Source of the DNA: Marine group II euryarchaeote REDSEA-S42_B7
Lineage (GTDB): Archaea; Thermoplasmatota; Poseidoniia; Poseidoniales; Thalassarchaeaceae
Direction: 5' to 3'
Assembly: GCA_001629255.1 (NCBI GenBank)
Contig: LURZ01000036.1
Coordinates: forward strand, 1 to 38,356
DNA length: 38,356 nt
Shown here: positions 1-15,631 of the stretch, piece by piece
Layout: each line of letters starts with the position of its first letter
Numbering within the stretch: the stretch's first letter is position 1
Program-made: the position numbers and the translations under genes
The notes under the pieces: model-generated
The model's input: the letters and a program-made list of their open reading frames with translations, nothing else
Told to the model about the DNA's origin: nothing
Database searches by the model: none

Positions 1-3000
1 CTGCCAACATTTTCCAAGGTTTGGAGGAACTCGGGAATAGGCACTCCCAGGACTCGTTTCAGATCTCTGTGGCCAGCAACTAAGGCTCGCCCAGGCATAC
101 CCGCCATGATTATTGTGATCCTTCTTATCTCTTCACAACATGCTACCTACGGCATTGACTCCGGTATACCGGGAAATGACAGGTCCGCAAATGAGGTCGA
201 TCAGAGCATCTACGACTTGGCACCAGATATTCTGAGGCAGGATCTTCTAGGCTTGTTCTCAGTTATGAACAGCGAACAGTACGATCCCAGCGAATCAGGG
301 CTTTGGTATCTAGGGACCTTCGGACCGAGCTTCGGAGGACAAGGATGGAATGACGCATATCAGTGGCTTTCTGAGCAAGACAGCGACGTTCCATTCAGCG
401 AAAGACCGGCCTTCGTATCTTGGTGGGATTACGGTTTCCAGGCCCTTGCTTCCGGAGATCACCCCACCGTGGCAGACAACTTCCAGTCAGGAATCCCGAA
501 TAGCGGTGCAATGCTCCTATCTTCAGGACAAGAGGACACTCTATCTTTGTTCATCTCAACACTTGCCTTCGGTGACAGGAAGCTGAATGATATGGTTCTT
601 GGAGAAGACTTCCTGGCTGCATTGGAACCAGAACTGTCCGGAGAACAAATCCAGGAGTTCCAAGATATACTATCGAATGAGGACCTCGAGTTCCTGAAAA
701 CGCGATCAATGGCAGTAGTTGCAGAATACGGCGAGGTACAGATGCTAAAGGGCAATCCGTTGGACGATTACGGGATTCCCTTATCCGATGCAGGTCACAT
801 GTTCTTAATCATAAAGGAAGGCGAACAGTTCGAAGAACCCACGACTAATGAATCAGAGGCTAAGACCCTTTTCAACAACGCACGTGGGTCAGGATTGAAT
901 TCAGAGTACGAAATTCTCGATTTTGAAGACGCGAAACATTACAGCATCGGCGGCTACCTTTACACCCGAGACATAATTGACGACTACTACGACGTATCTA
1001 CTGCAATTCACCGCACTAACGCGAAGTTCGGCATGGCTAGGGCCTTCCTGACAGCGGCATTGGACCTAGAACAACTCGTAAGCGTCTATCACAAGATTTC
1101 CTCAATCGACAACTATGAGGTGTCCGACTTCGAGAAATCCCATGGAAGCACAACAACAAGGAATCATGAAATCAGATACTTTGCCGTAGACAATCGCCTC
1201 TATCCACTGGGCGGAAGGGCATATCAGGATTTCCAGTCTTACCACAGAGGGGCATATTCAGGGATCTTCCATGCACCTACGGGCCTCTCCGGCCTAGATA
1301 TGGATACGTACATCACAACTACCTATGAGACCAATCAGGGGCCTAAGAACCTCCAGGAATTCTTGGACCAGCAGATGTCGGACCTCAGGGCACAGGCATC
1401 AGGTGCGTCCACTGGGGAGGATATGATCCAATTAACCGATAGGAGCTACCAGCATCAAGCCGGATTCTTTGACACAATGATTGCTAGGACCTACGTCGGA
1501 TACGGGACGTCTACCCTTGGATTGCCATCGATCAGCGGACAGGTAGGAGATGCTGATACCCCATCGACTTGGATTCTCCCAAACTCACTCACAGGGACTC
1601 CCGGGAGTTACTTACAGGGCTCTATGGCCCTCCCAGGAGCGATGATGAATCACTTCGTTCTATCCAATTGGTATGACCCGACTAATGGTTCACATTGCCA
1701 GGAAATCCAGATTTTCGGAACAGCTTCCACGGTAGCAGGCTCGACCAAGCTGACCGACGTCATGCTGTCAACAGACGCTACACTCTCAACCGGTTGGTCC
1801 GCTGTTCAGTCAGGCGGTCCTTGGGAAGTATCACCGATTGAAGATGGAGTTATTCCCACTGGATCCTCGATTCCCACCTACAGCAGCGCAATCTCATTCG
1901 AGGCCAAGACCTTGGACATCAGCAATGGCGCTACAAGCACAAGCAATGCAACAGATTTCGTTCTAACCGGGAAGGTAGACAAGTACTGCGGCTCAATCTA
2001 CGACTCCAACAGGAATGTGAAGATTCTGAAGTACTACAGCGGAGCCACTCTGGAGGGGACTGTGTCTCTAGACGGGATCGGTCCAGTCCCAAATGCCAGG
2101 ATACTGATTGAGAGAGACGCATTCAGTGGGGAGGAGGTAGAAGTCGACGGTCAGGTCGTTGACAGAGATTCCAGAACATACTGGATCCCCATCGGTAGCA
2201 CTCAGGCGAATGAAGATGGACTCTTCTCCTTCAAGGTACCAGCAGGAAAGATCCGGGTATCCGCCTTCTCGGGAGAACCAGATTTAGAATCAGCCAGAAC
2301 ATCAATTATATCGGGATCAGGCTCCTCCATGCAAGAACTATTCGTAGAGACCTCCCAGAATAGGAATGTGAATGCGATAACGGGAATCCTTGGGAACGTA
2401 TACGGCTCCACATGGCTATCCGAAACAATCGTCAATGTATCCGGAACAGATGGACACAGCAATGGCCGAGAAATAATTCAGGCTCCTATCTCGGTGGCCC
2501 CATCATCCGCTGCAGGAATCCTGGAATGGTCCGGCGAACTTGACTTCGACGGAGAACCTGTACTTTCAGCTCAAGTTATCCTCACACCATCCTCAGAAGA
2601 GGTTTCCATTCAACCCTATGTTGCCATGACCTCCAATGGAACCATGGAGGGCGAAGACCTGGAGTTCACTGGAACCGGAGAAGCGACATTCATGGGCGAA
2701 GGATCTGTAGAGAGCATGGGTTCAGTTTCCGTTCGGGAATTCACCGGTTCTCACACCCAGACCATCTACGACAACCACAGCATCACAGGACAGGGGCAGT
2801 TCTCCGGTACGGGCACCTTCGATGGCTCAATCACAGGCGACTTCCCCGGTTGTTCAGGAGACTCCGTCCCGGATGGCTCGGATGCATGCTTAGTTAGTGA
2901 GGACAACTACATACTGAACGGAACAATAAACGGCTCTGGAAAGTTCACTTCATTCGGGATTAGCGAATTCACAAGAAATCTATTCCAGGCCACATTCATA

Positions 3001-6000
3001 GGATCCGGCATATTCACCACAGACTCAAACCAGAATCTTTCGTCATACGGCACAATAAATGGTACGGGCACCTTCTCTGGACACGCTCTGTTCAGCGGGC
3101 CCATGGTCAGTCCTGGTTCGTTCCACGTTGTAGACGCTCTACCTGGAGAATATCTGTTATCCGTAGACTTCGGGGACGGAGACGCTGTGGAGTTAACGGC
3201 ACCATTCAGAATCCCACTATCGTCAACAGATATCCAAACCCCAGTTACGATTTACGGAGGCGCAATAAAGGGCCAAGTATCCCTTTTCTCCGGTAAACCA
3301 GTTTCCGAGGAAAGAGTATCCATATTCTCAATTAACGGGTCGAGCGAAGACTCTGTACTTGAGTGCCAAGGAGTAATTACCCATCCATGCTACGTATCTA
3401 CAGATGAAACCGGCTCTTTTGCAGTCGGCCCAATTGTGCCAGGAACCTACATCGCCGAAATAGATTCAGACGAGGACGGATTCCCAGAATTGTCACAGAT
3501 TTTCACCTTTGAATCAGATCAAGCTACGTTGGTCACATTCCCATCCGAGATACCTAAAACTTCTGATATCACATTCACCCTTTCGGACGAAGGAACGAGC
3601 GTAGACGACCTAGAGTTGCAGTTCTTGCCCGAGGATCAGAATAGAGCACCAGTATCCGTGATTTTTGACAACGAATCAAAAACCTACCACGCAGAATTAC
3701 TCCATGGTGATTGGGTTCTGAACTACACTCTGGGTGACAATAAGCAACTATGGCAAAGGGTGAAGGTAGCCGAATCAGACATATCTGATTCGTTCCAATT
3801 CCTGGTTAGTCAATCCGTTAATGGAATAGTTTTGAACAAACCAAACAAGGACGGATCGGCCCCGCAGATTGAGTCAAGAGTGATTAATCAACAGGTCGTA
3901 TTCCAGTGGGAAGGATTCGCCATAACCGCGACCACTGACTCATTCGGGGAGTTCAGTGCCCTTCTACCACGTGGAGCATTTGTACAGGCGACTGTTGAGA
4001 GGATGATTGGTGCTGGTGGCTTCTATTCTAACGGTACCAGCTTCGAGGTAGAAGAAGGGATGGAAAACGTCACTATAGAACTAACAGATTCCATGATGGT
4101 GCTTGGCGAAGTAAGCCTGAACCGAGAAGGTAATACGTACAACCAAGGATTCTCAGGTTGGTATCCAGTCCATGCCCTAGCGAACAACCTCGATGGTGAA
4201 ACAACTGCTGTATGGAGGGAGGAAGTTGATGACTTGGGGCGCTTCGATATGCTCCTACCAGTAGGAAACTGGTCATTCACACTCGACGCAGGGGGGATGT
4301 CCTCTAATTCCGTGACAAAGGAAGTCAACATCTCCATGGAAGGAGTTGTAGAATTGTTGGCTTTACCACTGGAGAACAGTACCGTCCGCATCGATTTCTT
4401 CATCGACCACGAGGGAGACAACAATGCATCAAATGGCACTCCTGTCAACTATCCCTTCGAAATAAATGCTGAAGTAATGCTGGAACCGGGAAGATACCGA
4501 ATCGTGGTCGAGAGGGCTAACTCTTCTGCCGACGAGCCGTTCGATACGCTCTATGACACGAACGAAATATTCGATGTGGAAATAGACGCCTCAACGATTG
4601 AGCGTTCGGTTGGTTTCGAACCAAGATGGCTGACTAACATCACTTTTAGAAACGAGAGCGGGGAAGTAATGCCCAATCACGAAATAAAACTTCAATCAGT
4701 GGACACTGGATGGACTCAGACATACTTCACTGATTTAGAGGGAATGCTTGTAGAGTACCTCGAAGAAGGGGACTGGATCGTGATCGTTGAAGATTTCGAG
4801 ACCAACTCGGATGTCTTCGAGGGTCTCAGAATGGACATTACTGTGAACCAGGATTCAGCGGGAACCAGCTACGACTTCTACACCCAGGAGCTAGCGCAAG
4901 TCACCTTGACTCTGCAGTCATCCTCAGAAGTGGCCAATGCTGAGGAAATAGAAATCACGGTCACGTCACAAGAAGGGCTAGGCTCCTTCCAAACTTCGGT
5001 TGACGGCCTTGAACAGGCTCTGGAAATCAGACTCGTCCCAGGGCTGTGGAACGTAGAGGTAAATCAAACCAGTCAGGATGGAGTCAGAATTCTCTTGGCC
5101 AACTCCACTCTGATCGAGTCAGGAGTCAACGTGGGTCCCGATCACCAGATCTACATGACGGTGCAAAAGCTAGTTAGGGTCAGCGGCAAAGTATTTTGGG
5201 ATCTCGATGCTGATGGTACTCCTGGTTTCTCTGAGGGCCTGGCAAATGCAACCATTAACCTTGTTGGAAACGACGACAGTCAACAAATCACCACTAGCGA
5301 TAGCGGAGAATGGTCCACTTACCTGCCCTCATTGAGCACGTGGAACCTCACAGTCGAGAAGACAGGATTCGACACCCAGAACGCAACCATAGAACTCGGA
5401 GAAACATCGCTCATCGAGGATATCGAGATTTCTGCAGGAGAGGTAGAGGTCTCAGGGACAATCTCCTATTTGGATCAAGCTTGTGTTTCCGGTGGTGACT
5501 GGTCTGTTTCCATAATTCCATTTCACGGAATTGCCAGAGATCGCGTACTAGTCTCAGGAAACAGTGAAGGAGAGTGGACAACGCTTCTACGACCGGGAAG
5601 CTGGGTCGTTTACTCCACAACATCTGACGTAACACCAGGGTGTCAGGGACTAGTGTCAATCGACCCCCTGGTTGTCGGAGTTGAAGGGGGTACAGTTGAC
5701 TCTGAACTCACGATAGGGGGAACCCTGAACCTAGATACAAGTTGGCTTGATTTCGAGGGAGGGGAGCACGAACTAATTGAGATTGAAGACTACGACCTAG
5801 TGATCGATTTCAACTCAATGTCCTGGAACGAGGAGCTTGACGAGGACGGCACTCTATCGCTACTGCTTCTCCCTGGAACTATTCAGACATCCAGCGACTT
5901 CGAATTAAATGAAGAGGGCAGGAACGTTTCCTATTCTGGAGGAAAGGGAGTTACAATCAGGGCTGGTCAGGAAAGCCCGCTAACCACTCTCAGCATAGAG

Positions 6001-7419
6001 AGGGTTTCCAAACAAGATGTGACCCTCTCCGTTCAGGGCCCGGATACTATCCAGGTCCAGGTGTTGGATCAGACTTGCACAAACGACGACGATGCAGACG
6101 GTGTAATCAACGGTGAGGACGCATTCCCACAGGATTCCAGCGAGTGGAGCGATAACGACGGTGACGGTATAGGCGATAATGAAGACCCAGACGATGATGA
6201 AGATGGGACTATCGACATCGACGATGATTTCCCACTAGGGCAGGGGCTCTTCGAGAATCAAGACCTTGGTTGCAAGTACAATGATGCGTACTTCAATGTC
6301 ACAGTGGATTACCAAGGTCACAACTCATTCGATGAATACACAGTAGTAGGTACGGTCCCTGGAGCCGATGGTGCGCAGTGGAGTGTGGAGTTCCAGAACT
6401 CTACAGGTTTTTGGTCGAACACCCACTCTTTCGACTTGGGCCTAGGAAACTCAGACTTATCGGATCAAATCAAACTTAGAGTAGTTCCCGCCTTTGTGGG
6501 CTCTGCACACCACTTCCCCTCGGGGCACATGGTCCTGGTCAAACTCTCAACAAACCAAGGATACTCCTCTCAAATCGAACTTACAGTGGAAGTGCCTCCG
6601 GCTAGAGGATTAGAGATATATGAGCCAGACAACGTGTACTTTGATGTGGAAGAAAGAGCTGTGACTATGGAGATACCGTTCAAGAACACCGGTAACTCGG
6701 ACGAACTATTCTTCTTCGAATTCGAACAGAGCGATTGGTGGGAGGTTGCCGGACCCAGTACACAACCAGCATCACCGTTCTCGGATGGTACTGCAACCTT
6801 CACTTTCGTTAGATCTAGCGAAGTAGAACTCCCAAGTCAGTACACTGAAGAAATAACATTCACGGTCACTGATCAGAATAACAACTCATACCCGGGAGAA
6901 ACCATACTTGTAATGGACGCCCCATCTTTGTCCATAGACGGGAGCACAGTCGACCTCCTTGGAAGCGACTTCGCGACATTCGGGGAAATTGAGACCTATT
7001 CTTTGAATATCACCAATTCAGGTAATGTAGACGCAGACAGCGTTACTCTGGCTGCAGCGCTATGCTCGGATATAAGATGTGAAAATTTCGTTGGAGTCAA
7101 CGCAACATCTAGCGGTTCAGTTCCAGCAGCTGGCGAGTCCACATTCTTGATTAATATGGATTTCACTCAGTTTGACGAGTCAAAGAAGTACTTCATCAAA
7201 TTCTACCTCGAGGGAGAACTTACTGATGAGATATCTGAACCATGTAATGATATCCTACCTGAAGGCGAGACATCTTGTGTATTCGAAGCGCAACTCTGGA
7301 CTAGCTCCGAGGAAAACGACGGTCTCCAGTACCTATCCTATGTTTTCCTGGTCATGCTAATAGCTGCACTCCTGTACTTCACTAGGAGGCCAACCAGACG
7401 AGTTAGCGCCCCGTTCTAA
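1..7419 (+). CDS. aglB: AglB/STT3-like oligosaccharyltransferase, C-terminal part (5' end outside window), with a giant C-terminal multi-domain extension and a terminal TM helix
   Basis: Frame 1 is stop-free from base 1 (LPTFSKVWRNSGIGTPRTRFRSLWPATKARPGIPA-MIIVILL...), so the ATG at 106 is probably internal. A TM segment (MIIVILLISSQ) is followed by FVSWWDYGFQALASGDHPTVADN at ~412-480, which contains the STT3 catalytic WWDYG motif. Later come GFFDTMIARTYVGYG and VKILKYYSGATLEGTV, typical of AglB C-terminal domains. After ~2040 there are many carboxypeptidase-regulatory/Ig-like modules, TSP3-like DxDxDG repeats (~6082-6240), and a C-terminal TM with a basic tail (YVFLVMLIAALLYFTRRPTRR). Confidence 0.85.
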   Translation: MPTFSKVWRNSGIGTPRTRFRSLWPATKARPGIPAMIIVILLISSQHATYGIDSGIPGNDRSANEVDQSIYDLAPDILRQDLLGLFSVMNSEQYDPSESGLWYLGTFGPSFGGQGWNDAYQWLSEQDSDVPFSERPAFVSWWDYGFQALASGDHPTVADNFQSGIPNSGAMLLSSGQEDTLSLFISTLAFGDRKLNDMVLGEDFLAALEPELSGEQIQEFQDILSNEDLEFLKTRSMAVVAEYGEVQMLKGNPLDDYGIPLSDAGHMFLIIKEGEQFEEPTTNESEAKTLFNNARGSGLNSEYEILDFEDAKHYSIGGYLYTRDIIDDYYDVSTAIHRTNAKFGMARAFLTAALDLEQLVSVYHKISSIDNYEVSDFEKSHGSTTTRNHEIRYFAVDNRLYPLGGRAYQDFQSYHRGAYSGIFHAPTGLSGLDMDTYITTTYETNQGPKNLQEFLDQQMSDLRAQASGASTGEDMIQLTDRSYQHQAGFFDTMIARTYVGYGTSTLGLPSISGQVGDADTPSTWILPNSLTGTPGSYLQGSMALPGAMMNHFVLSNWYDPTNGSHCQEIQIFGTASTVAGSTKLTDVMLSTDATLSTGWSAVQSGGPWEVSPIEDGVIPTGSSIPTYSSAISFEAKTLDISNGATSTSNATDFVLTGKVDKYCGSIYDSNRNVKILKYYSGATLEGTVSLDGIGPVPNARILIERDAFSGEEVEVDGQVVDRDSRTYWIPIGSTQANEDGLFSFKVPAGKIRVSAFSGEPDLESARTSIISGSGSSMQELFVETSQNRNVNAITGILGNVYGSTWLSETIVNVSGTDGHSNGREIIQAPISVAPSSAAGILEWSGELDFDGEPVLSAQVILTPSSEEVSIQPYVAMTSNGTMEGEDLEFTGTGEATFMGEGSVESMGSVSVREFTGSHTQTIYDNHSITGQGQFSGTGTFDGSITGDFPGCSGDSVPDGSDACLVSEDNYILNGTINGSGKFTSFGISEFTRNLFQATFIGSGIFTTDSNQNLSSYGTINGTGTFSGHALFSGPMVSPGSFHVVDALPGEYLLSVDFGDGDAVELTAPFRIPLSSTDIQTPVTIYGGAIKGQVSLFSGKPVSEERVSIFSINGSSEDSVLECQGVITHPCYVSTDETGSFAVGPIVPGTYIAEIDSDEDGFPELSQIFTFESDQATLVTFPSEIPKTSDITFTLSDEGTSVDDLELQFLPEDQNRAPVSVIFDNESKTYHAELLHGDWVLNYTLGDNKQLWQRVKVAESDISDSFQFLVSQSVNGIVLNKPNKDGSAPQIESRVINQQVVFQWEGFAITATTDSFGEFSALLPRGAFVQATVERMIGAGGFYSNGTSFEVEEGMENVTIELTDSMMVLGEVSLNREGNTYNQGFSGWYPVHALANNLDGETTAVWREEVDDLGRFDMLLPVGNWSFTLDAGGMSSNSVTKEVNISMEGVVELLALPLENSTVRIDFFIDHEGDNNASNGTPVNYPFEINAEVMLEPGRYRIVVERANSSADEPFDTLYDTNEIFDVEIDASTIERSVGFEPRWLTNITFRNESGEVMPNHEIKLQSVDTGWTQTYFTDLEGMLVEYLEEGDWIVIVEDFETNSDVFEGLRMDITVNQDSAGTSYDFYTQELAQVTLTLQSSSEVANAEEIEITVTSQEGLGSFQTSVDGLEQALEIRLVPGLWNVEVNQTSQDGVRILLANSTLIESGVNVGPDHQIYMTVQKLVRVSGKVFWDLDADGTPGFSEGLANATINLVGNDDSQQITTSDSGEWSTYLPSLSTWNLTVEKTGFDTQNATIELGETSLIEDIEISAGEVEVSGTISYLDQACVSGGDWSVSIIPFHGIARDRVLVSGNSEGEWTTLLRPGSWVVYSTTSDVTPGCQGLVSIDPLVVGVEGGTVDSELTIGGTLNLDTSWLDFEGGEHELIEIEDYDLVIDFNSMSWNEELDEDGTLSLLLLPGTIQTSSDFELNEEGRNVSYSGGKGVTIRAGQESPLTTLSIERVSKQDVTLSVQGPDTIQVQVLDQTCTNDDDADGVINGEDAFPQDSSEWSDNDGDGIGDNEDPDDDEDGTIDIDDDFPLGQGLFENQDLGCKYNDAYFNVTVDYQGHNSFDEYTVVGTVPGADGAQWSVEFQNSTGFWSNTHSFDLGLGNSDLSDQIKLRVVPAFVGSAHHFPSGHMVLVKLSTNQGYSSQIELTVEVPPARGLEIYEPDNVYFDVEERAVTMEIPFKNTGNSDELFFFEFEQSDWWEVAGPSTQPASPFSDGTATFTFVRSSEVELPSQYTEEITFTVTDQNNNSYPGETILVMDAPSLSIDGSTVDLLGSDFATFGEIETYSLNITNSGNVDADSVTLAAALCSDIRCENFVGVNATSSGSVPAAGESTFLINMDFTQFDESKKYFIKFYLEGELTDEISEPCNDILPEGETSCVFEAQLWTSSEENDGLQYLSYVFLVMLIAALLYFTRRPTRRVSAPF
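2640..3120 (+). repeat. Gly-rich G-x-G-x-F beta-solenoid-like repeat block within the AglB extension
   Basis: Recurring FTGTGEATFMGEGSV / ITGQGQFSGTGTFDGSITG / LNGTINGSGKFTSFG / TFIGSGIFTT / YGTINGTGTFSGHALFSG. Confidence 0.6.
6082..6240 (+). repeat. TSP3-like acidic Ca-binding repeats within the AglB extension
   Basis: NDDDADGVINGEDAFPQDSSEWSDNDGDGIGDNEDPDDDEDGTIDIDDDFP. Confidence 0.8.
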
Positions 7420-7451: not shown

Positions 7452-8687
7452 ATGCGTGGAATCTCGCATCTCGAACTCATGCCAGAACCCGAGGACCCAA
7501 GCCTACTTACCGCAGTAGACACAGATGCACCGGGTTATCCTGGAAAGGCATATGGCCTCACTGATGAGGAAGCAAGGAAGCTAAGATGGCCAATGGGTCC
7601 AATTATCAACTTCCTTTGGCCATGGGGTGCAGTAGGATTCTCAGCCATAGTAGTCTCAGTTATGCTTGTGTACCCTTCAATATATTCTGTACTTGGTAAC
7701 GTCCTGGATTCAGAATGGGCTTTCGAGGACTCCGGCATTAGAGCACTCCAGAGTTCTGGAACAATGGGGGAAGGCGTCAATGTCTGCATCGTAGACACGG
7801 GAATTGACATCAACCATCCCGACTTCTATGACCTGTCTTTGGAAGGCTTCCGAGACTTCTATACTGAGGTCAATGAACCGGTTCGAGACATCGGACAAGC
7901 TAGTCATGGAACCCTGATGGCAGGGCTATTAGTCGCAAACGGATCATTTGTCGGTGCAGCACCAGAAGTCTCCCTATCCGTGGCTATAGCGCTTGGACCC
8001 GATGGCAAGTCTGCAAATGAGAGAATGGTCTCTCAAGCGATAAGATGGTGTAGAATTTCACAGGATGCAGATATCATATCGCTCAGCCTAGGCTCTGAGC
8101 CAGGTTCTATTTTCGCTTCTTCATCAGATACCACCGTAGCAGTAAAAGAGGCTCTTACAGAGGGTATTTTCATAGTCGCAGCGGCAGGAAATATTGATTC
8201 AGAGCAGAACTCCTCGGACGTTTCGTCCCCTGCAAGTCTCCCAGGAGTTATTGCTGTAGGGGCGCACGGAAAATCAGGAGATCCATGGAAGGATAGCGCC
8301 AGGGGGTCATTGGTCGACCCAGAAACAGGTGAAAATAGGACCTTCCCGGACCAAAAACCTGAGATTGTAGCCCCAGGAGTTGATCTTTGGTCCTGTATAG
8401 ATAGCGAAAGAGACCCTCCATACGCCTTCTCAACAGGAACAAGTGACTCCACCGTGATGGTTACGGGTGCACTGGCCCTAATTATTGCAATTCACGGAGA
8501 ACAAATTGCAGGTGATGACGGGGAAATCGACGAGCAAGAGATGCGACTGGTCAAGGTTGCACTGGCTAACTCTGCCAAGAAAACAGCAGGTCAGGTTCAG
8601 ATACATGACCAGAAAAGCGGATACGGTCTACTAGATGCAATTGAGTGGTCTGAACAGGTCCAGAAGGAGTTCGGATTAGGAACTTAG
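7452..8687 (+). CDS. Membrane-anchored subtilisin-like (S8) serine protease
   Basis: N-terminal TM (WPWGAVGFSAIVVSVMLVYP). Catalytic blocks: VCIVDTGIDINHPDF (Asp), SHGTLMAGLLV (His), VAAAGN (oxyanion Asn), FSTGTSDSTVMVTGALAL (Ser). Confidence 0.92.
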   Translation: MRGISHLELMPEPEDPSLLTAVDTDAPGYPGKAYGLTDEEARKLRWPMGPIINFLWPWGAVGFSAIVVSVMLVYPSIYSVLGNVLDSEWAFEDSGIRALQSSGTMGEGVNVCIVDTGIDINHPDFYDLSLEGFRDFYTEVNEPVRDIGQASHGTLMAGLLVANGSFVGAAPEVSLSVAIALGPDGKSANERMVSQAIRWCRISQDADIISLSLGSEPGSIFASSSDTTVAVKEALTEGIFIVAAAGNIDSEQNSSDVSSPASLPGVIAVGAHGKSGDPWKDSARGSLVDPETGENRTFPDQKPEIVAPGVDLWSCIDSERDPPYAFSTGTSDSTVMVTGALALIIAIHGEQIAGDDGEIDEQEMRLVKVALANSAKKTAGQVQIHDQKSGYGLLDAIEWSEQVQKEFGLGT

Positions 8688-13049: not shown

Positions 13050-13102
13050 TCGGAGTAACAGGTTCTCCTAACATTATTGAGTGAGTCTAAGAGTTGGATA
13101 TC

Positions 13103-15631
13103 ATGACAGCGGGCACTTCTTCACGACCTGGGGTGCAGGAAAGGATATTCCTGCATCTAAGTGACTATGTAGATCATACCGATAAAGTCGAAGTCCCATT
13201 CGCACTGTCCCAGATGGGCATCGCAAATGCGGTATCCATTGCTAGATCTAATGTTCCCAGGGCAATATCTGGCATGAAAGAGGCCGGCCATCTTGTGGAA
13301 CGCCAGGCCCATGTCACCGGGGTTTCTAGGAAGAGGAAAGCCTACTTCCTTACCGACGAGGGTGCCAAGGTTGCAGACGAAATTTGGTCTAGGATATCTG
13401 AGAATAAGGTACGAGTTATTCATTCAGATGGCCGCTCCGAATCTTCAACTCTTGTTCAAGCAATCGAGTCATCCGAACTCCCACTTAGACATGTGGACAT
13501 GCTTCGATACATGGACGATTCAGGGACAATTGACCTGTCAGGACTTTCATCCGAATTGGTTGAGAGGGACCTATCCAAACACATCGAGAAACAGCTTGTT
13601 TCCTCCTTAAATGACCTTCCTAGAACTAGGAGATTCTATGGTAGGGAGAAAGAATTGGACGTAATGGCTAAACTGCTCGAAGCCAAATCCGCATCAATTC
13701 TGGTACCAGGGATTGCAGGAATTGGGAAGACCTCACTTTCTACAAAGATTCTCGACCGATTTACACACCGGAGAAACCTCCTTTACCATAGATGTCAGGA
13801 CTGGGAGGGATCTAGGGCCTTTCTTGAGGCATGCGCCGAGTGGCTATCAGCGGTTGGACATAACGACCTGTCTGATTATTTGGCTTCAACCCCAGTTCCT
13901 CAGACTAGTATGGCTGTGAACCTAATCTCTGCAGGTTTATCCGAATCTCCTTCATTGATTGTAATAGACGATCTGCACAAAGTTGGCGATGAGACGCTAT
14001 ACTCAATTTTGAGGGAATTAACCCTAAGAATTCCCTCCCTAAATGAAGTCGGACTTGTGATGTTCTCCAGATCATTCAGGATGGTAGTCCCTGAATCCGA
14101 CCAATCTGGTAATATCGTAACCTTGGTCATGCCTCTACAGGGACTAGATGAGGAATCCAGCAGGCAGATTCTCACGGCCATGCCAAAGATGGACTCTGAT
14201 CAATTCATGCACATTTACTCGTTGTCCAGAGGGCACCCATTAATTCTTGAACTAATCAATAGGGGTAATGTTGCTGAAACCTTCCACGCCACATTAGAGG
14301 CATTTGTGGAGAAGGAGATTTTCAGTAGGCTTTCAGGAACAGAGAAACGTCTATTAGGAGCCATTGCGGTTTTCAGAGAGCCAGTTCCTATCCAAGCAAT
14401 CCATCAAATCGAGGGTAGCGTAGATCTAATTGATGAATTGGTCGAAAAGGGACTAGCCAGACAGTCAGATGCAGAAAATTTCGATGTTCACGATCTAGTG
14501 AGAGAGTTCTTACTAAGATCCATGGAACACGAAATGAAAACAGATCTCCATGCTTCAGCAGTGAAATGGTATAGGGGGAAAATGGACGATGCAGCTGATC
14601 GGATAGAGTTCATTCACCACTTGAGCCAAACTGGAGATGAAGAGGGTCTAGCAGAGGTTTTGCTTACCGAAGGACACGGCCTAGTAAGTTCTGGACACAC
14701 AGAGCTTCTCTCAATCCTCAACTCTCTGGAAAGTAGTGATTTCGACACAAAGAGTCGTGGTCTAATCAGAGAACTAAAGGGAGATATACTGACCATTCAG
14801 GGAAGGTGGGACGAAGCTGAGGAGCAATACGACATTGCAACAAAGCACGTTGGCGCTAACATGCCAAGCTCCGAATTAGCACGTCTGTTATCAGCCAGAG
14901 CAGACATAGCCGTCAAGAGGGGTGCAATGGACGATGCTCTCGAGCTGCATAGGAACGCACTCAAGATTCAGATTGAGATTAGAGACGCAGTAGGTGCCGC
15001 TAGGACTTACAATAATATGGGTCATATTTTCCGACGAAGGAGGGATTCTCGTCGCGCTCTCGAGGTCTACGGGAATGTCGAGGATCTTCTGGAAAAAGAG
15101 AAAGATCCAGAACTAAATGAGGCTAGAATTAGATTAGCATCTGCATTTATTGAGATGGGCGAGCTAGATAGGGCAAGGGAACACGCTCTTTTTGCCTATG
15201 AGAATACCAAGGACTCCAATCAGGATTTCCTTCACGCTAGATCCAGAGCGGTTCTTGGCAGATACTATGCAAAAATTTCAGATAATGACCTAGCGCTTCT
15301 ACATTACTCCGGCGCACTCGACACCCTATCCGATCAGAATGATCCACAAAGTACAGTCGAAGTAGAGATGCTACTCGGACAGGTCTTGATAGATGCAGGT
15401 AGAAGGGAGGAAGCAGCCGAGCACTACCTAAACGGTCTAGCCATAGCCGAGTCAAATGACTTTAGAATGCTGCAGGGAGAGTTACTAGCGAGACTGGGAG
15501 AAGTCGAATCCGATCGATCTCAGAGGATGAACTATCTCCAGAGATCGCTCTCTCTATTCAGGGAGCTCGGAGCTGTTGGAAGGATGAAGGAAGTCCAGAA
15601 CTCAGTCCACAGGGCTGTAATGGGAAGATAG
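13103..15631 (+). CDS. Winged-HTH + STAND (NB-ARC/MalT-like) NTPase + TPR protein, probable signal-responsive regulator
   Basis: N-terminal MarR-like wHTH (NVPRAISGMKEAGHLVERQAHVTGVSRKRKAYFLTDEG); Walker A VPGIAGIGKTSLS (~13706-13740); Walker B LIVIDDLHKV; C-terminal TPR-like helices (ALELHRNALKIQIEIRDAVGAARTYNNMGHIFRRR). The ORF track starts at a TTG (13094); the ATG at 13103 is a more likely start. Confidence 0.88.
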   Translation: MTAGTSSRPGVQERIFLHLSDYVDHTDKVEVPFALSQMGIANAVSIARSNVPRAISGMKEAGHLVERQAHVTGVSRKRKAYFLTDEGAKVADEIWSRISENKVRVIHSDGRSESSTLVQAIESSELPLRHVDMLRYMDDSGTIDLSGLSSELVERDLSKHIEKQLVSSLNDLPRTRRFYGREKELDVMAKLLEAKSASILVPGIAGIGKTSLSTKILDRFTHRRNLLYHRCQDWEGSRAFLEACAEWLSAVGHNDLSDYLASTPVPQTSMAVNLISAGLSESPSLIVIDDLHKVGDETLYSILRELTLRIPSLNEVGLVMFSRSFRMVVPESDQSGNIVTLVMPLQGLDEESSRQILTAMPKMDSDQFMHIYSLSRGHPLILELINRGNVAETFHATLEAFVEKEIFSRLSGTEKRLLGAIAVFREPVPIQAIHQIEGSVDLIDELVEKGLARQSDAENFDVHDLVREFLLRSMEHEMKTDLHASAVKWYRGKMDDAADRIEFIHHLSQTGDEEGLAEVLLTEGHGLVSSGHTELLSILNSLESSDFDTKSRGLIRELKGDILTIQGRWDEAEEQYDIATKHVGANMPSSELARLLSARADIAVKRGAMDDALELHRNALKIQIEIRDAVGAARTYNNMGHIFRRRRDSRRALEVYGNVEDLLEKEKDPELNEARIRLASAFIEMGELDRAREHALFAYENTKDSNQDFLHARSRAVLGRYYAKISDNDLALLHYSGALDTLSDQNDPQSTVEVEMLLGQVLIDAGRREEAAEHYLNGLAIAESNDFRMLQGELLARLGEVESDRSQRMNYLQRSLSLFRELGAVGRMKEVQNSVHRAVMGR

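Follow-up and report, generated by a model that had tools for sequence, protein, structure and literature searches.

The window analysed here, the whole 38,356-nucleotide contig C30 of the Poseidoniales genome REDSEA-S42_B7, opens on a single plus-strand frame of 2,472 codons (positions 1-7419), which an ORF scan found to be free of internal stops, as the original prediction had stated. No stop or gene boundary lies in the frame near position ~2,050, so the proposed fusion of an AglB catalytic domain to a very long extension stands. The frame is truncated by the contig edge at the start of the window, and the source genome is fragmentary and incomplete (71%). The N-terminal half of the gene was found as a 789-amino-acid frame running off contig C4 of the same genome (G000:C4), the sole match to STT3 (PF02516; 50.4 bits, above the cut-off) in a profile search of the genome's contigs. 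The C4 half and the window map head to tail onto one intact gene, the 97%-identical orthologue (L063) from the single-cell genome AG-422-I18 (G005), on which C4 ends 53 bp short of the window start with the frame kept. We therefore put the full protein at ~789 + 18 + 2,472 codons, or ~3,280 aa; judged from its sequence, the window frame covers the last three quarters of an archaeal AglB made as one polypeptide. Contigs C30 and C4 are genome neighbours, and the ~53 missing bases fall inside aglB. The features of the locus are collected in Table 1.

Table 1. Features of the aglB locus (positions in the window; aa, codons of the window frame)
Feature	Position	Strand	Basis
End of STT3 membrane region; last hydrophobic segment aa ~33-44	1..147	+	Continuity with C4 half on L063
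AglB catalytic globular domain, aa ~50-545	148..1635	+	Conserved block; homology to solved AglB
WWDYG catalytic/sequon-binding motif, residues 141-145	421..435	+	Sequence, invariant
Giant ectodomain of ~1,900 aa with 33 sequons; beta-sandwich domains for the most part	1636..7323	+	AlphaFold, Pfam, sequon test, dN/dS
Variable insert at the junction of catalytic domain and ectodomain proper (aa ~551-650)	1651..1950	+	Alignment occupancy 0.34-0.40
Poseidoniales-specific, highly conserved ectodomain block and start of long-strand beta block	1951..2835	+	Conservation 0.56-0.75; long strands in model
Ectodomain part in common register with other Thermoplasmatota	2836..7248	+	hhalign
CarboxypepD_reg domain, aa 1745-1803; SdrD-like FWDLDADG motif just before	5233..5409	+	PF13620 E=4.2e-16
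TSP3-like Asp-rich repeats, probably calcium-binding, variable, aa ~2029-2080	6085..6240	+	Sequence; occupancy 0.34-0.62; low pLDDT
C-terminal transmembrane helix, aa ~2442-2460	7324..7380	+	Hydropathy of orthologue L063
Short basic tail RRPTRRVSAPF and stop	7381..7419	+	Sequence
Membrane-anchored S8 subtilase, 32 bp downstream of aglB	7452..8687	+	PF00082 E=2.4e-38; synteny
1,428-aa surface protein: beta-helix, Ig-like, C-terminal helix	8763..13049	+	Sequence, synteny

Both the WWDYG motif and the STT3/AglB homology claimed for the frame were confirmed. WWDYG and its flanks are invariant among 38 relatives, and the DxD-type motifs expected upstream are located on the C4 half, where GSDPWY, ADHD and TIGEAQ represent the first and second DxD and the TIxE motifs (their roles are described in PMC8342417). 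These three are invariant or nearly so among 20 relatives, none of which departs from the Asp-His-Asp, the TIxE glutamate or WWDYG. With a near-identical orthologue as query, the best solved relative was A. fulgidus AglB (5gmy, E=1.8e-9), the second aligned stretch covering the WWDYG region. The window sequence alone gave a weak AglB_core match (E=0.035), and TIGR04154 reached E=2.8e-49 for one relative, yet stayed under that model's 450-bit cut-off. From these motifs and matches we infer that the protein is an active oligosaccharyltransferase (OST). It is probably also the only OST in the cell: the source genome, G323 and G361 each hold one STT3 match, although with its own genome 71% complete this reading rests on the relatives.

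Giant AglB shares with A. fulgidus AglB-L (5gmy) the STT3 membrane domain, the DxD, TIxE and WWDYG motifs, an outward catalytic domain and the character of a single-subunit enzyme. However, it is 2-4 times longer than the A. fulgidus protein (868 aa, of which 499 are transmembrane and 369 globular; PMC3703281), and has a ~1,900-residue beta ectodomain and a second membrane anchor. In Poseidoniales there is additionally an N-terminal multi-helix membrane domain of ~330 aa (L063:11196-12305 and L084:11647-12756, both minus strand). Because of this extra domain, the transmembrane region foreseen upstream is present but contains more than 13 hydrophobic segments, rather than the ~12-13 helices expected. 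No Pfam model matches the domain, and no homologue of it was found in families f11, f16 and f21 or in MGIII; it is absent from the other Thermoplasmatota sampled.

The extension does follow the catalytic domain as described, but at a length of ~1,900 aa rather than ~1,800. AlphaFold models made in two 1,200-residue pieces had mean pLDDT values of 77.7 and 83.0, and the second piece was almost wholly beta. By Pfam, CarboxypepD_reg occurs in the window protein and in 16 of 16 other Thermoplasmatota ectodomains, many of which also have SdrD_B, SpaA, NPCBM_assoc and CARDB domains. The modules listed earlier, namely the SdrD-like motif, CarboxypepD_reg, TSP3-like repeats and second membrane anchor, are all present (Pfam, sequence), although the Asp-rich TSP3-like stretch is modelled at low confidence and varies between relatives. 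The suggested beta-solenoid coincides with very long beta strands predicted at high confidence at aa ~881-1032, which may or may not form a solenoid. Foldseek returned strings of Ig-like domains (pilins, BaTIE, macroglobulins and integrins); the queries were flexible 1,200-residue chains and the TM-scores low, so these matches are informative on domain class only. Among them, bacterial Ig-string surface proteins (BaTIE, CNA-B pilins, SdrD) gave the best fold matches of the first model and have tandem beta-sandwich domains in common with giant AglB, but they are wall-anchored and carry no enzyme, and at such TM-scores the likeness is one of domain class alone. A 5,584-codon open frame with CarboxypepD_reg matches is present in another Thermoplasmatota genome (G305:C1:131513-140446).

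Conservation of the extension was examined in 80 Poseidoniales loci from named records, 60 of which have both frame ends inside the contig. Nearly all of these complete frames are giant (57/60, at 3,124-3,335 aa), so the extension proved to be conserved across Poseidoniales AglB orthologues. The two families, MGIIa and MGIIb, can be aligned along their full length, and occupancy of the ectodomain is near-complete except at two variable inserts (aa ~551-650 and the TSP3-like region, ~2,010-2,100). In close pairs, dN/dS was 0.07-0.14 for the ectodomain versus 0.05-0.06 for the catalytic part. The frame is thus translated and constrained throughout, and the ectodomain is under strong purifying selection.

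A wider survey took in Thermoplasmatota, the phylum to which the window belongs, plus a few controls. It indicated that the fusion is conserved beyond Poseidoniales, in much of the phylum, and so is older and wider than had been supposed. Frames in the sister group MGIII are 2,337-2,374 aa long, and STT3 frames of 2,079-2,744 aa occur in 22 genomes of 11 further families in the phylum sample; each of these frames for which the complete sequence was read closes with a single membrane helix, in most cases followed by a basic tail. The same layout is carried by the cultured T. acidophilum, for which there is a complete isolate genome (G361). G361 was recognised by its proteasome alpha subunit, which matches 1pma, the T. 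acidophilum proteasome, at every one of 233 residues. In profile-profile comparison (hhalign), the Poseidoniales ectodomain from aa ~946 onward falls into one register with the other families (E=2.7e-87; next-best register, E=5e-59), and in that best register the block at 1951..2835 is without counterpart. Moreover, 26 giant proteins cluster apart from the shorter AglBs sampled in a quick, unrooted tree (SH-aLRT 92). These comparisons are most simply read as a single ancient fusion to which Poseidoniales later added ~400 aa of ectodomain and the N-terminal multi-helix domain. Independent fusions in each family are disfavoured by the single register and by the grouping of giant forms, albeit in an unrooted tree. 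Short AglBs are found in Thermoplasmatota families f5, f13 and f19, and may represent either loss or the older state, according to where the tree is rooted.

The idea that the extension presents sequons of its own was borne out at the sequence level. In 63 ectodomains we counted 2,492 N-X-S/T sequons against 1,059 expected from composition, or 2.35 times expectation; the reversed motif came to 1.06 times expectation and N-P-S/T to half. The ectodomain in the window has 33 sequons where 18.2 were expected, a number reached in 0 of 2,000 shuffles, whereas its catalytic part has 1 against 3.3 expected and is not enriched. Several ectodomain sequons are kept in most relatives, and NGT at aa 1478 in all. 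This conservation may be partly structural, because NGT 1478 is part of an apparently calcium-binding loop. The enrichment supports a view of the ectodomain as glycosylated on the cell exterior; self-modification by the enzyme does not follow. Nor is the enrichment a unique mark of giant AglB, an idea we rejected: in about half of the genome, sampled by regions, a few other surface proteins equal or exceed it and others do not. A 767-codon frame on contig C28 (L246:1-2302, G000:C28), with 28 sequons where 8.8 were expected, is the most enriched in the sampled half and a candidate major glycoprotein. In contrast to the AglB ectodomain, a 2,210-codon frame on contig C24 with one predicted helix (L242:9957-16587, G000:C24) is strongly depleted in sequons, with 6 where 20.5 were expected.

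The subtilase downstream has its Asp, His and Ser motifs all in place. A subtilase lies directly 3' of giant aglB in 42 of the 43 Poseidoniales loci with enough flank, and in nearly all Poseidoniales relatives it is followed by a long frame, usually a surface protein. This pairing suggests a common role of the two gene products in surface-protein maturation in Poseidoniales. Three MGIII loci were readable over 3-5 kb of flank and showed no subtilase there; in the other Thermoplasmatota families the flank at aglB, only ~0-2.5 kb, is too short for the neighbour to be judged. Beside the surface-protein genes, window positions 13094-15631 encode an AAA/STAND-like ATPase with TPR repeats.

When a profile of the Thermoplasmatota ectodomain was compared with solved structures, NOMO2 was by far the best match (PDB 9c7v, E=7.1e-35). 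However, a control profile, built from unrelated proteins of these genomes with CarboxypepD_reg domains, likewise placed NOMO2 first (E=2.7e-7), a single-sequence phmmer search found nothing, and generic Pfam models beat NOMO-specific ones, PF13620 outscoring NOMO_5th. NOMO models in Pfam had no match in the window protein. Two other sequon-rich surface proteins gave no NOMO match, by single-sequence search and hence as a weaker control. We therefore reject homology and regard the match as generic to the domain class, on the strength of the control profile, the phmmer result and the higher generic Pfam scores. The giant AglB ectodomain is nevertheless similar to NOMO in layout, a likeness from which we claim no kinship. 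NOMO, of the BOS complex of the eukaryotic multipass translocon, is a string of transthyretin-type domains with a C-terminal membrane helix (PMC8327139, PMC11186639), and in both, tandem transthyretin/CarboxypepD_reg-type domains lead to one membrane helix at the C-terminus, with a short cytosolic tail behind it. NOMO differs in being a separate protein with its own signal peptide and no catalytic domain. A functional analogy may also be drawn with the luminal subunits of eukaryotic and Asgard OST and TRAP (OST1/ribophorin I, TRAP alpha/beta), which are beta-rich. These have a position around STT3 and the translocon in common with the ectodomain, but are separate chains, and we found no sequence match between them and giant AglB. 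These luminal subunits and OST3/6 have been reported only from eukaryotes and from TACK and/or Asgard archaea (PMC11417166).

These observations lead us to a model, to which we give about even credence, in which giant AglB is a single-polypeptide OST with a built-in luminal accessory arm that docks nascent chains, stays in the glycoprotein coat and is itself N-glycosylated. The AglB catalytic core would lie outside the membrane, where the ectodomain starts, and the ectodomain would return to the membrane via its C-terminal helix, followed by an inside-positive tail. Being tethered at both ends, the chain would form an arch beside the active site. Such an arm would hold nascent extracytoplasmic chains close to the active site, retain the enzyme in the membrane-proximal glycoprotein coat and itself carry N-glycans; the ectodomain would thereby do in cis the work of the separate luminal beta-domain subunits of the eukaryotic OST and translocon. 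The gathering of nascent substrates, one of the roles first suggested for the extension, would fit this anatomy. The STT3 motifs, the lone STT3 match per genome, the constant length (57/60 frames), the single register and the grouping of giant forms, the dN/dS of 0.07-0.14, the 2.35-fold sequon excess, the all-beta models and the restricted occurrence reported for OST1 and OST3/6 all speak for the accessory arm. Against it, families f5, f13 and f19 manage with short AglBs, no OST subunit appeared among the top 50 Foldseek matches of the ectodomain models, and the conserved length would fit a structural role as well.

Such a structural role is the most serious competitor, possible though clearly less probable than the accessory arm: the ectodomain would be mainly a building block of the coat, and the whole a self-glycosylating coat protein carrying its own OST, contributing, for example, to the unordered ~20 nm protein layer on Thermoplasmatales. 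A sequon-rich string of beta domains anchored at both ends would suit this purpose. The possibility is worth considering because of that layer: Thermoplasmatales including T. acidophilum are reported to be without an S-layer, and two of them show the ~20 nm unordered outer protein layer (PMC12448462). However, a coat protein has to be made in many copies, as OSTs usually are not, and the genome encodes other large surface proteins. The same report bears on the proposal that the extension tethers the enzyme to an S-layer. The ectodomain is long enough to reach a surface layer and has domains of cell-surface type, but T. acidophilum has the same architecture and, as a member of the Thermoplasmatales, is reported without an S-layer (PMC12448462); as a general role this was not borne out, and we consider it very unlikely.

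Cleavage offers a further explanation, one we regard as unlikely, though better placed than the S-layer tether. Here the adjoining subtilase or another protease would cut the ectodomain off, releasing an OST and a separate anchored glycoprotein from a polyprotein. It draws on the presence of the subtilase directly downstream in 42/43 Poseidoniales loci; yet none stands beside the gene in the three MGIII loci, and the gene pair may merely have a common role in surface-protein maturation. Finally, the gene is broken at a contig edge in the source genome with 53 bp missing, and an assembly chimera or frameshift joining two genes might be suspected. Such an artefact has a negligible chance of being the explanation and is ruled out by intact frames of like length in dozens of genomes, among them the single-cell genomes AG-422-I18 and AG-457-A01 and the complete isolate genome.

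A bolder version of the accessory arm is that the ectodomain is an ancestral covalent translocon arm, with OST catalysis and a NOMO-like luminal folding or assembly module combined in one Thermoplasmatota molecule. We think this doubtful, a little less so than cleavage. If true, giant AglB would unite in one chain what eukaryotes distribute among subunits of OST, TRAP and BOS, and would point directly to a place for NOMO-type proteins in the OST-translocon machinery.

The archaeal OST as described consists of a 13-helix membrane domain and a modest globular domain. The giant form, found across much of one phylum, abundant surface-ocean archaea and cultured thermoacidophiles among them, departs from this in being two to three times larger, sequon-rich and anchored twice. 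Such an enzyme might explain how an OST of one subunit copes without accessory ones, and it is a candidate for the protein layer seen on archaea that have no S-layer. AglB is a known enzyme; the giant, twice-anchored ectodomain layout predicted here appears to be new as far as the literature searched. We found no description of it there, subscription journals and protein databases being outside the scope of the search, and prior notice is possible. In one Poseidoniales paper an oligosaccharyltransferase figures solely among transcripts (PMC9723583), and AglB is named, without its size, in a paper on Cuniculiplasma (PMC5155288). Published STT3 phylogenies may have missed giant AglB through length filtering: a referee of one of them noted that the author had discarded sequences that were too long (PMC4973528).

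We also noted a pattern at the extreme C-terminus. Nearly all complete Poseidoniales giant AglBs end in Phe after basic residues (APF, RF, KF or MPF; window 7405-7416); in MGIII and several further families the last two residues are RR or KK.
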